DNA of 60,323 nt from Prochlorococcus sp. AG-402-P18. Its GTDB lineage: Bacteria; Cyanobacteriota; Cyanobacteriia; PCC-6307; Cyanobiaceae. The translations under genes and the position numbers were made by a program. The DNA is taken from NCBI GenBank assembly GCA_003216275.1, contig QCJC01000011.1:1-60323 (forward strand), in the 5' to 3' direction. Position 1 is the first letter of the stretch, and each line of letters opens with the position of its first letter. Positions 1,730 to 12,643 of this stretch are shown piece by piece. The notes beneath the pieces are model-generated. The model saw nothing but the letters and a program-made list of their open reading frames with translations. It had not been told where the DNA came from and made no database searches.

Positions 1730-2506
1730 TTAATAAAAATAATCCTTAAATTGTTTAGGAAAATCACTATCACCAATATCTTTAAAAATTTCTAATATTA
1801 GTTTGGTTGTATTATTCTTACCAGATAAAAAATCCCAAAATTCATCCCCTACTCTGGCATCATAAGAAGGAATTAGAGGAGGTATTTTGCTTTTATTTGC
1901 TATCCAAAAATCTTTTTTATAAGGATTATAAGGAAAAGCAATAAAACACTCAAAATCAAAACCTGTGTTCTTTAATGCATAACTGGCATACCATAAAAGT
2001 GCCGTATCAAAAAAAGAAGTTGTACTTTTTTTATTTGGTTGAGCAGTTTTAATGTCAATCAAATATTCTTTATTATCTTTTCTCAAATAAATATCAGCAC
2101 CTTGTCCACCCGGAATTGGATTGGATTTTGAAACGATATTACTTTGCATAATAAAATTTTGTAATTCTTTAAAAAAATCAGTTGAAGAAGTCAGATCTCC
2201 CTGAATTCTTCTATTCCTAAATTCAGTTATTTTATTTTGAATATTGTCTGGAATTGCAGGAACTGATTTATTAAAAACATTTTCATCAAGAACATCAAAA
2301 TTATTTATTCTTGCAATATCTTTTGCAAGTCTCTCCCAGAATGAACCTAATGAACCTTCTAAACCCCCAACTTTCGATCTTATTTTTCTTTCTGTTGGGA
2401 AAATTAAATCTAAAGGATGGAAAGTGGTAATTTTTTGTCTTTTTTTCAAATATCCAACAATCGAATCTTTAATATTTTCCTCGATAACATTTTCTAAAAT
2501 ATTCAT
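1730..2506 (-). CDS. TdeIII-family type II restriction endonuclease (probable)
   Basis: 258 residues. The N-terminal part has the family-like block GGLEGSLGSFWERLAKDIA. The centre carries a PD-(D/E)XK-type nuclease core, GADIYL followed by EYLIDIKTAQPNKK (about residues 138-162), then FFDTALLWYASYALK. This layout matches TdeIII-type enzymes, whose prototype cuts GGNCC. The nuclease would cleave unmodified invading DNA, but no methyltransferase gene is in the window. It follows a truncated type ISP-like gene on the same strand with a 13-bp gap, and repeat copies B and A lie on either side. The family call is from motif memory; the sequence specificity of this protein is unknown. Confidence 0.65.
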   Translation of the reverse strand: MNILENVIEENIKDSIVGYLKKRQKITTFHPLDLIFPTERKIRSKVGGLEGSLGSFWERLAKDIARINNFDVLDENVFNKSVPAIPDNIQNKITEFRNRRIQGDLTSSTDFFKELQNFIMQSNIVSKSNPIPGGQGADIYLRKDNKEYLIDIKTAQPNKKSTTSFFDTALLWYASYALKNTGFDFECFIAFPYNPYKKDFWIANKSKIPPLIPSYDARVGDEFWDFLSGKNNTTKLILEIFKDIGDSDFPKQFKDYFY

Positions 2507-2519
2507 AAATAATTTTAAA

Positions 2520-3158
2520 TTAAATTGAAATTTTACTCCCTAATTTTCTAATAATAATACAACTTAACTGTGGAGAAAACAGACTTTCTACGATTTCTCT
2601 TAAGAGACGATCAATTAGGGCAATGACAAACTCGCGACAAACAGAGAGATTGATTGCTTCTTCTTGATGAGGTCGAGGTTGTCTTAAATCTTTTTTGCGT
2701 CCACTTGATAAGTCCTTAGCAGATGCAGGGAAAATGATTTGAGATGTTCGTAAGTCCTCCAATAAGACCCTTACAACGTGATGAGTTTTAAGTATTCGAT
2801 CAGCATTGGGTCCTATCCGATCAGTACTTGAAACAAGAACTCGACCCTGAAATCTGGCATCACTTGCAGCACTGATAAAACTATCCATATCTGCCTTCTT
2901 GATGCTTCCTTTAGGGGCAAAACACTTCGCTTGTACTGCCCAAGTCTTTCCAGATTGATCATTAAATACCAGATCGATTCCGCAATCAGATCCCCATTCA
3001 GAGCGTTGTGGATGTTCGTCCCATAACCAGACTTCATTGACCTGTGATTTCCAGACAGGATCTATCTTCAAAAACCATTTAACAAACTTCTCAAACTGCT
3101 TTCCCCTAATGCCTGAGTCGGGATCTAATGATTTGTAGAACTCGTCAAAGGTCGCCAC
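2520..3158 (-). pseudogene. Truncated type ISP-like restriction nuclease/helicase (N-terminal Mrr-like domain)
   Basis: The first ~165 residues look like the N-terminal nuclease domain of COG4889/LlaGI-type enzymes: VNEVWLWDEHPQ, then the Mrr-like active site GIDLVFNDQ..WAVQAK and KADMDSFISAASDARF. The start of the helicase domain is present (PRPHQEEAI, about residues 168-176), but the ATPase motifs and the methylase are missing. After AINLSV the frame runs through repeat copy B and stops at 2520. Family members are normally far above 1000 residues, so this 212-residue ORF is a remnant. Start ATG is at 3158. An isolated nuclease domain could still be made, but I have no evidence that it acts. 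Confidence 0.7.
2573..2642 (+). repeat. island repeat module, copy B
   Basis: The core 2573-2598 contains CTTTCTACGATTTCT preceded by GAGAAAA. Two exact GACAAAC heptamers follow at 2625-2631 and 2636-2642, 11 bp apart. The copy occupies the 3' end of the truncated nuclease/helicase gene, where homology to that family appears to stop (about 2650), so it may mark the recombination junction. Confidence 0.65.
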
Positions 3159-3245
3159 TTTTTATTTTTGGATCCTTTGTTCTTGTTTCTATTTTGCAGG
3201 TTCTCATCAGTTTGTCTTATCAGAGGTGATGAAAGATTCACATGC

Positions 3246-3274
3246 TTGACGACCTACGAAAGATTTAATAGTAT
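3246..3274 (+). promoter_or_regulatory. Sigma70-type promoter for a small RNA
   Basis: TTGACG at 3246-3251 and TAGTAT at 3269-3274 are separated by 17 bp, close to the bacterial housekeeping consensus. The predicted start is about 3281, directly ahead of two stem-loops. The rest of the 3159-3355 gap shows no ORF that I believe. Confidence 0.55.
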
Positions 3275-3280
3275 ATCTGT

Positions 3281-3357
3281 ACTAGGGCGTCTCCTCACAC
3301 AATCCGTCCTACTCAAAAGCATCTATCCAAGGGTCGCGTTTGGAGGGGTGCTTTTTT
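3281..3357 (+). ncRNA. Candidate small RNA with Yfr1-like CTCCTCACACA loop
   Basis: The predicted transcript is ~77 nt. A 7-bp stem (TAGGGCG 3283-3289 with CGTCCTA 3305-3311, one G-U pair) presents a 15-nt loop holding CTCCTCACACA at 3291-3301. A second hairpin with a T run follows. Yfr1, a cyanobacterial small RNA that represses outer-membrane protein mRNAs, carries the conserved single-stranded element ACUCCUCACAC, and here 10 of those 11 positions match. In Yfr1 the element lies between two stem-loops; here it is in a hairpin loop, so this is a relative or mimic rather than a clear orthologue. Promoter, loop and terminator are visible; function is inference. Confidence 0.5.
3315..3357 (+). 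terminator. Rho-independent terminator of the candidate small RNA
   Basis: AAAAGCATC at 3315-3323 pairs with GGTGCTTTT at 3347-3355 (one T-G wobble). The inner stem TCCAA 3326-3330 pairs with TTGGA 3340-3344, and the loop is 9 nt. Ts run to 3357. It ends next to the possible ATG at 3359 of the following gene, which would usually stop read-through into it. Confidence 0.6.
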
Positions 3358-3382
3358 GATGCCTCGAATTAAAAAGAGAATT

Positions 3383-3658
3383 ATGAATCAACCAATCAGA
3401 GAACCAATCCCAACTCCAACAGGATGGTTGGTATCACCTACTAGGGAATTCTGTATGTTCTTTATTCGTGATCCAAAATCCGAAATGGCATTTCCGAGAG
3501 TGTATACACAACTCTGGTATTGCCTAGAAGATGGCACTCCAACCAAATTAAAAAATACAAGAAGAATTGATCTCGAATCTGCTATTGAAACTTGGCATGA
3601 ACTCTTAACCCAAGATTGGGAACTAATGGAACATCAGATAAATGAAGATGCTGCCTAA
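3383..3658 (+). CDS. DUF1651-like small protein
   Basis: 91 residues from ATG 3383, preferred because AAGAGA lies just upstream. An in-frame ATG at 3359 sits at the end of the terminator T run and has no ribosome-binding site. The body resembles the picocyanobacterial DUF1651 family: GWLVSPTREFCMFF near the start, KLKNTRRIDLESAIETWHEL in the middle and a Trp-rich end. Function is unknown for the whole family. It converges with the next gene, and the stop codons overlap by 4 bp. The family assignment is from pattern memory. Confidence 0.6.
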   Translation: MNQPIREPIPTPTGWLVSPTREFCMFFIRDPKSEMAFPRVYTQLWYCLEDGTPTKLKNTRRIDLESAIETWHELLTQDWELMEHQINEDAA

Positions 3659-4095
3659 CCGTAATTAACTCTAAATTGCTCAAAAGGCAGACCAGTTTTA
3701 CCCTCGATTTCTTTTTCTAACGAGATCCACCATTCCTCTTCGTCTAATGACACGTCATAAAACCTTCTTGCGAAATGTGCGTTTATTTCATCAATACTTT
3801 TAACCCCATATTCATCTAATGCTTCTTGCTGTGAATCAAAAACTCCTTCACCTTCACCATCAATAACAACACTGACTTCCCACCAATTTTTACTTTCCCA
3901 TTCTGGTAGCAAATCAAGTAATGCTTGTGGAGCAACAAGTTCTACTGACCAATTTCCACCACTTCTAAACCTTTCATTTCCATCTAAATCGTCATCGTTT
4001 ATGTGATCCAAATAATTGTCTGCTCTCATCCTCTCAACTTGTTCTCGATTGAATTTTTTTATCCAATCTTCTATTTCTTTTTTAGTTTTATACAT
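3655..4095 (-). CDS. Hypothetical acidic protein
   Basis: 146 residues, not recognised. It is rich in Asp, Glu and Trp, with no signal peptide or membrane segment. The N-terminus looks helical (KKEIEDWIKKFNREQVERMR). The centre reads like a compact alpha/beta fold (NWSVELVAPQALLDLLPEWE, then WWEVSVVIDGEG). Such small acidic proteins in islands are sometimes antitoxins or phage-derived inhibitors, but nothing here proves that. The start is ATG at 4095. It is followed in the same direction, on its upstream side, by the two small membrane genes, so all three could share a transcript. Confidence 0.55.
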   Translation of the reverse strand: MYKTKKEIEDWIKKFNREQVERMRADNYLDHINDDDLDGNERFRSGGNWSVELVAPQALLDLLPEWESKNWWEVSVVIDGEGEGVFDSQQEALDEYGVKSIDEINAHFARRFYDVSLDEEEWWISLEKEIEGKTGLPFEQFRVNYG

Positions 4096-4106
4096 TTTTC
4101 GATCCT

Positions 4107-4232
4107 CTATTTCAGAAATGGAAGCAACTTACTGAAGGTCGCTGGAAACGAACCAACAATGAGTGCCACTGCTCCAAGAACAACCGCCACGATTGCTGCA
4201 TCCACTAAAAGATCCTTCCAGTTGTATTTCAT
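4107..4232 (-). CDS. 41-residue single-pass membrane protein
   Basis: It reads MKYNWKDLLVDAAIVAVVLG and ends FSKLLPFLK. One hydrophobic helix covers residues 12-30, with a short charged N-terminus. Its ATG (4232-4230) overlaps the TGA of the upstream ORF as ATGA, the usual sign of translational coupling. No homologue is recognised. A small membrane partner, holin-like or toxin-like protein are possible readings, none demonstrated. Confidence 0.5.
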   Translation of the reverse strand: MKYNWKDLLVDAAIVAVVLGAVALIVGSFPATFSKLLPFLK

Positions 4233-12533: not shown

Positions 12534-12643
12534 GTGCAATCTTCTATTTTTTTTTATTCTTGTAATTCCATTGTAAGAATTCAGACTAGGCTTTAAGCAA
12601 GAAGCAATCATGACCAAACAAACAACATAATACATTTGTACTA

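Follow-up and report, generated by a model that had tools for sequence, protein, structure and literature searches.

The window analysed here, i.e., the whole 60,323-nt stretch of contig QCJC01000011.1 from Prochlorococcus sp. AG-402-P18, carries near its start a compact series of features on the plus strand, namely a candidate promoter, a LexA (SOS) box, a hairpin whose loop holds a motif of the Yfr1/Yfr10 type, a terminator-like fold, and a DUF1651 gene (Table 1). A preliminary description of this DNA had placed a promoter, a hairpin with the motif in its loop, and a terminator at 3246-3357, and these coordinates hold. The account was incomplete in that the LexA box and the DUF1651 gene, whose leader the RNA would be, were absent from it.

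Table 1. Positions of the features in the window.
Feature	Positions	Strand	Remarks
-35 element TTGACG	3246-3251	+	Promoter scan; CTTGAC in 16/16 other-genus copies
-10 element TAGTAT	3269-3274	+	17 nt spacing from -35; 9/12 consensus
LexA (SOS) box TAGTATATCTGTACTA	3269-3284	+	Overlaps -10 and predicted transcription start (~3281)
Hairpin 1	3283-3311	+	7-bp stem 3283-3289/3305-3311; 15-base loop 3290-3304
Loop motif CTCCTCACACA, Yfr1/Yfr10-type seed	3291-3301	+	10/11 Yfr1-motif bases
Terminator-like long imperfect hairpin	3315-3357	+	Stem 3315-3355; T-run 3352-3357
DUF1651 gene, 91 aa	3383-3658	+	PF07864 1.8e-26, 92.8 bits vs cut-off 22

The hairpin and the terminator-like fold together have a minimum free energy of -26.2 kcal/mol (z -2.73), which none of 200 shuffles equalled, and the loop bases are predicted to be unpaired at 0.95-1.0, i.e., the loop is open in the predicted fold. 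A simple terminator scan with loops of 3-8 allowed listed none on 2500-4200, which leaves the fold and conservation as the evidence for the terminator; the T-run is kept in 43 aligned copies (see below). Taken alone, the promoter of the window is at chance level, with 2 such sites on 2500-4200 against 4.4 expected. The match to 10 of the 11 bases of the Yfr1 motif is present in the loop as the preliminary description had it. It is the one such match in the window, where 0.33 are expected, and because 29 of 100 shuffled windows had at least one, it is not significant alone.

The DUF1651 gene begins 25 nt after the T-run. In the 19 copies with a locatable ATGAATCA at this place, the start codon lies 25-27 nt 3' of the T-run. 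The promoter scan found nothing promoter-like between the T-run of the window and the start codon. Given this short distance and the lack of another promoter-like site, read-through into DUF1651 is likely. The 17 named loci encoding a near relative of the protein are all from Prochlorococcus. The model of its fold is of middling confidence (pLDDT 76) and had no Foldseek match at E 0.001 or better; rows 1, 4, 6, 9, and 10 of that search were PC4 or PUR proteins, with E 0.2 at best, which is not significant. A second structural comparison gave Z scores of at most 4.7 (for a row that is neither PC4 nor PUR), with PC4/PUR rows at about 4.2. The viral structure library gave nothing at E 0.001, and the PDB held no sequence relative at E 1. 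The modelled resemblance to PC4/PUR single-strand nucleic-acid-binding proteins, among other rows, is only a hint.

DUF1651 genes have been described as widespread in marine cyanobacteria, several of them lie within genomic islands, and some belong to the small set of host genes that respond to cyanophage infection with a rise (PMC5490813, PMC2518516). The host-response genes PMM0684, PMM0819, and SYNW1658 belong to the same Pfam family, and the main-text portions of the report on them (PMC5490813) mention neither a leader RNA nor LexA control. In the main text of a mitomycin C study of Synechococcus WH8102 (PMC3744912), the three DUF1651 locus tags looked for do not occur. A phage origin was considered and rejected. 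Relatives of the DUF1651 protein were absent from the viral contigs and from 50,697 phage records, and inspection by eye of 200 nt from each of the six viral contigs that have the box pattern revealed no hairpin and terminator of this kind.

LexA boxes and leaders of DUF1651 genes

A covariance model built from 19 copies of the RNA matched 39 of 41 genus genomes at E 0.01, Yfr10 matches included. From the 142 in-genus matches we extracted a non-random set of 82, most of them top-scoring with some lower-scoring ones picked in addition, and split it by a rule (CTTGA plus a box-like pattern upstream) into 30 S-type copies and 52 others, the latter mostly Yfr10-like with a few decayed relatives. 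A search of 400 family genomes found a match at E 1e-5 in at least 48 (Yfr10 matches included), a lower bound given that few candidates were scored per genome. All 17 of its matches outside the genus were fetched; one (L198) has no LexA box and was excluded, and the other 16 are S-type. A DUF1651 gene lies 3' of the RNA in 27 of the 30 in-genus S-type copies vs. 1 of the 52 other model matches. Behind the other-genus S-type copies the DUF1651 profile was detected in 11 of 16 cases and was not detected in 5. In the genome of the window itself, a second unit of this type with DUF1651 is present on contig 7, and a further copy, on contig 20, has a damaged box and lacks DUF1651.

The box TAGTATATCTGTACTA agrees with the consensus reported for Prochlorococcus genomes (TAGTACA-N2-TGTACTA, PMC2921402) at 13 of 14 positions and differs by one base from the box of Nostoc recA, AGTATATCTGTTCT (PMC3091678 Table 1). 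An 11/12 LexA box was present in 27 of the 28 best-scoring model matches, many of which had themselves built the model, and Yfr10-type matches lack it. A CTTGA-type -35 element occurs in 27/27 in-genus copies, which is no test because these rows were partly chosen by CTTGA. CTTGAC is kept in 16/16 copies from other genera, for which the -35 element was not a selection criterion. In an alignment of 43 copies, whose in-genus rows were partly chosen by box and -35 and which leaves out the poorly aligning hairpins of S-type copies L144, L102, and L112, the columns of the box half-sites show 0-5 changes, the middle of the box 7-8, and the upstream spacer 4-19. The spacer drifts, while few changes fall in the -35 element, the half-sites, the stem, the loop core, or the terminator arms.

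Since the in-genus copies were partly selected by -35 and box, the other-genus copies and the DUF1651 genes are the cleaner evidence. A LexA box of at least 10/12 lies within 330 nt upstream of 27 of the 31 DUF1651 genes examined, a test free of that selection, compared with 2% per 330 nt in a shuffled control (one stretch shuffled). The 31 genes comprise 30 with kept loci, mostly the best per genome, and the third gene of the genome of the window, out of 171 matches.

Among the 27 boxed genes, 13 have an S-type leader and 14 a T-type leader (L155, L156, L160, L162-L165, L168, L170, L172-L174, L178, and L179). The T-type consists of the LexA box, a stretch of little structure, a terminator-like T-run, and DUF1651, without the Yfr10-like hairpin, and carries a loosely similar UCCCCRUCRCAARC element. 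The two types were told apart by eye, and box and T-run were located by pattern in 11 of the 14 T-type leaders. As 14 of the 31 genes pair the LexA box with this other leader, the hairpin is dispensable for DUF1651 control. The box with a terminated leader is common among DUF1651 genes, and the Yfr10-like hairpin is one version of that leader.

With respect to the LexA regulon described for cyanobacteria (PMC3091678, PMC2921402), the box of the window fits the consensus and overlaps the promoter. The named targets include recA, lexA, umuC, umuD, ssb, and uvrA; an RNA leader or DUF1651 gene was not seen among those of the main texts, to which the comparison was confined. Elsewhere in the genome of the window, a gene read as UmuD-like, from a partial lexA-family match below the family cut-off, has a LexA-type box (TAGTTCATATGTACTA) that begins 34 nt before its start codon. 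The lexA gene has a box (GGTACATATGTATT, also listed as the lexA box of MIT9211) that overlaps the listed TTG start, and its true start is probably further downstream. As a separate observation, a LexA-like palindrome, TAATACATTTGTACTA, lies at 12628-12643 of the window, directly 5' of the ATG of a 298-aa ORF.

The hairpin loop and Yfr2-type RNAs

The genome of the window contains four CTCCTCACACA sites. They are those of a canonical Yfr1 on contig 3 (L058, 60.2 bits with Rfam Yfr1), of two Yfr10-type hairpins on contigs 20 and 29 (36.2 and 28.8 bits with Rfam Yfr10), and of the window. The preliminary description had proposed a Yfr1-like RNA distinct from the real Yfr1, a second RNA with that seed. 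It is indeed separate from Yfr1, which lies on contig 3, and it has a Yfr1-type seed, which it shares with three further sites rather than one. The proposed covariance search, in turn, went against the Yfr1 label, as a search with Rfam Yfr1 (RF01116) at E up to 10 returned nothing on 3150-3450. In addition, the Yfr1 motif is unpaired between two stems, whereas the motif of the window, with 10/11 of the conserved bases, sits in a hairpin loop.

This layout is that of Yfr10 (RF02362), in which a ACUCCUCACAC-type motif in a 5' hairpin loop is followed by a terminator within ~78 nt (PMC2518516, PMC6778093). Rfam Yfr10 scored 19.0 bits on 3150-3450 against a gathering score of 43, a weak test because the Yfr10-type copies of the same genome miss that cut-off too. 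Unlike Yfr10, the window RNA has a LexA-boxed promoter, a role as DUF1651 leader, and a drifting loop. Yfr103 was ruled out as an identity for the window RNA, its Synechococcus paralogues being 290-328 nt long (PMC5069720).

Yfr2 binds both Yfr1 and Yfr10 (PMC6778093) and has been described as the partner of Yfr10 (PMC2518516, PMC6778093). An Rfam Cyano-1 RNA (RF01701) adjoins each of the two own-genome Yfr10-type genes (54.6 and 63.3 bits), and its 5' end holds AUGUGAGGAGU. From this place beside Yfr10 and from the 5' motif, Cyano-1 appears to be the Yfr2 family. No Cyano-1 RNA was found in the window at the gathering score. The Yfr10 gene adjoins Yfr2 in HL strains. Of 20 in-genus copies of the unit, 3 had a Yfr2-type (Cyano-1) RNA in the flanking sequence fetched, and one occurred at 4 of 10 loci outside the genus. 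In 4 of the 6 genomes of another genus, g34, that carry the unit, Yfr2 is ~110 nt upstream of it; in the fifth only 56 nt of contig precede the unit, and in the sixth (G263) Yfr2 was not found in 3 kb. In two of these genomes the loop pairs with the g34 Yfr2 over 10 bases, none of them a wobble.

The layout and the g34 loci could suggest that the element is an ordinary Yfr10 paralogue, i.e., an independent sRNA gene that merely lies 5' of DUF1651 and is regulated as Yfr10, and one g34 copy adjoining Yfr2 reaches 35.4 bits with Rfam Yfr10, compared with 36.2 for the Yfr10 of the genome of the window. We regard this as unlikely, given that the LexA-boxed promoter of nearly all best-scoring matches (27/28) is absent from Yfr10-type ones, that DUF1651 follows closely, and that the window copy itself scores just 19 bits. 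Our comparison suggests that the window RNA may work like Yfr10, judging by layout and predicted pairing, and that it is a variant distinct from it by its promoter, its link to DUF1651, and its score below the (weak) Rfam cut-off.

The loop motif becomes significant through the homologous S-type loops, which resemble the 11-mer more than shuffled loops do (mean match 8.6 for the 30 in-genus and 8.4 for the 16 other-genus copies; shuffled 6.3). The exact 11-mer is kept in none of these 46 copies, and within the same genomes it is perfect in 46 of the 52 other model matches (mostly Yfr10) vs. 0 of the 30 S-type copies, which argues for a weaker or different constraint on the S-type loop. Over 40 distinct hairpins the six outer pairs of hairpin 1 form in 92.9% of cells, compared with 20-44% when slid. 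Covariation in the stem is slight (two pairs, three cells), and partner shuffles often equal it (28 to 119 of 500). The last U and C of the UCCUC loop core are invariant in 40/40 distinct hairpins, and its other bases are mostly conserved across several genera. A pairing of the loop with the terminator, CUCAC with GUGAG, was considered as an antiterminator and rejected; by eye it is possible in some copies and not in type A.

Both Yfr2-type RNAs found in the same genome have a 5' end with a perfect 9-bp complement to positions 3291-3299 of the window. With G-U pairs allowed, an unbroken run of 9 or more pairs with the 5' end of Yfr2 is possible in 36 of 46 loops, as against 3.5% of shuffled loops, and the other 10 form fewer. 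S-type loops match Yfr2 over a mean of 8.8 bases (other genera 9.2; shuffled 6.0) when G-U is allowed, and over 6.3 bases (other genera 6.8; shuffled 4.5) by Watson-Crick pairs only. In 2000 simulations with changes at the same positions and a background spectrum, the number of loops that kept the pairing averaged 17.5 of 43 and never exceeded 27 vs. 36 observed, a count favoured by the transition-tolerant score with which the motif was located. Counted between nearest neighbours, transitions and transversions number 47 and 20 in the motif, 59 and 52 elsewhere in the RNA (P 0.03, a weak excess for the motif), and 64 and 91 in the promoter spacer (P 0.0001). If all changes are taken as transitions at random positions, the retention of pairing has P 0.0005; these P values for loop drift are too small because the copies are related. 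The drift of the loop thus tolerates wobble pairing.

The predicted energy of the window RNA with one of the two Yfr2 RNAs is -10.9 kcal/mol (shuffled loops -4.6; 0/300 as good), and Yfr10 with the first gives -9.7 kcal/mol. With the second Yfr2 the window RNA reaches only -8.0, and 8 of 300 shuffled loops were as good. Over the family, the plain loop-Yfr2 duplex shows a modest gain, with a median of -13.6 vs. -11.2 for shuffled loops, and Yfr10 has -17.3. By computation, the loop is able to pair with a Yfr2-type RNA, so the preliminary suggestion that the RNA could bind the Yfr2 family finds support as a predicted pairing; for Yfr10 the pairing is published.

CUCC-rich loops are common, and a motif match expected 0.33 times per window could by itself be accidental, the element having no regulatory RNA function. 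We consider this very improbable in view of the invariant UC, the UCCUC core mostly kept over several genera, and pairing tests in which the loops exceed shuffled and simulated ones.

A candidate SOS-controlled leader RNA and its surroundings

Given the recurring unit of box, hairpin, terminator-like fold, and DUF1651, we see about an even chance that the element is a Yfr10-like 5' leader RNA of DUF1651 that is SOS-induced, self-terminating, and Yfr2-pairing, with read-through. Transcription from the LexA-repressed promoter would start at ~3281 and produce the 5' leader of the DUF1651 mRNA. Many transcripts would end at the leader terminator and give a ~77-nt Yfr10-like RNA with the seed CUCCUCACAC in its open loop, and the remaining ones would read through to yield the DUF1651 protein. 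Inactivation of LexA by DNA damage or phage infection would increase both RNA and protein. Like Yfr1 and Yfr10, the released RNA would pair with Yfr2-family RNAs at their 5' end. It might also pair with ribosome-binding sites, and in this way the SOS response would be coupled to the Yfr1/Yfr2/Yfr10 network.

Alternatively, the leader could be a purely cis-acting attenuator. The LexA-controlled leader would then serve only to set or condition read-through into DUF1651. Either a protein or the leader itself would read the loop, and the terminated fragment would have no role in trans. The tie of the RNA to DUF1651 fits this, as do the T-type leaders of sister genes, which manage with box, terminator, and a UCCCCRUCRCAARC-like element without the big hairpin, and the loss of the exact seed. 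On the other hand, the loop has no shared pairing position in the first 150 nt behind the RNA, an antiterminator pairing that fits all copies was not seen (by eye only), and the way the loop drifts fits wobble pairing with a partner elsewhere. We hold an exclusively cis-acting leader to be possible and less probable than the Yfr2-pairing leader. A leader that acts in cis and an RNA that acts in trans are compatible, and both can hold.

More speculatively, the Yfr2-pairing leader may be a movable, SOS-inducible Yfr2 antagonist, made as the terminated leader of a phage-response gene. Captured Yfr2 would shift the control of carbon and energy metabolism by Yfr1 and Yfr10, and read-through would supply the small, perhaps nucleic-acid-binding DUF1651 protein. 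We put this forward tentatively; if true, a single promoter would respond to an attack by making an RNA as well as a protein. The window RNA may tie DNA damage or phage attack to the small-RNA network of Prochlorococcus. If the leader RNA does pair with Yfr2, it would be the first element that, to our knowledge, links the SOS response to the Yfr1/Yfr2/Yfr10 network, and it would exemplify how a single sRNA seed comes under a new switch. Furthermore, the LexA box offers a direct and testable reason for the rise of DUF1651 genes in cyanophage infection. An earlier description of an SOS-linked, Yfr10-like DUF1651 leader was not found in the main-text portions of the literature searched.

The RNA segment is exchangeable for another version (67-68% identity) between kept flanks (98-100% over 60 nt upstream). 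In the pair L081 and L067, for example, the 60 nt upstream are 100% identical and the 300 nt downstream 92%, and the RNAs are 67% identical. The preliminary description had taken kept flanks with a lost loop as evidence against its proposal; the outcome of this check is mixed, for the segment can be swapped and the exact 11-mer is lost, and the pairing capacity is largely kept. It had also supposed that mobile DNA brought the RNA. The neighbours of the unit are common to a few close relatives and different elsewhere, which is compatible with that part.

On the minus strand, 1730-3158 of the window holds two adjacent restriction-endonuclease-like genes, TdeIII-type and Mrr-type. The start of the mrr-like gene and the intergenic region next to it (3113-3237) recur nearly letter-identical at three different RNA loci, namely the S-type leader of the window, a T-type leader (L140 in G023), and the Yfr10-type hairpin on contig 29 of the same genome (L061). 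Behind this one neighbour, cassettes of regulatory RNA are apparently exchanged for one another. Separately, L028 (G000:C29, ~849, minus strand) has a LexA box and a terminated leader before an unrelated Cys-rich small ORF (MGRIKTPK...), for which Pfam gave nothing at E 0.1. At L036 another LexA-type box precedes a Cys-rich ORF similar to this one.
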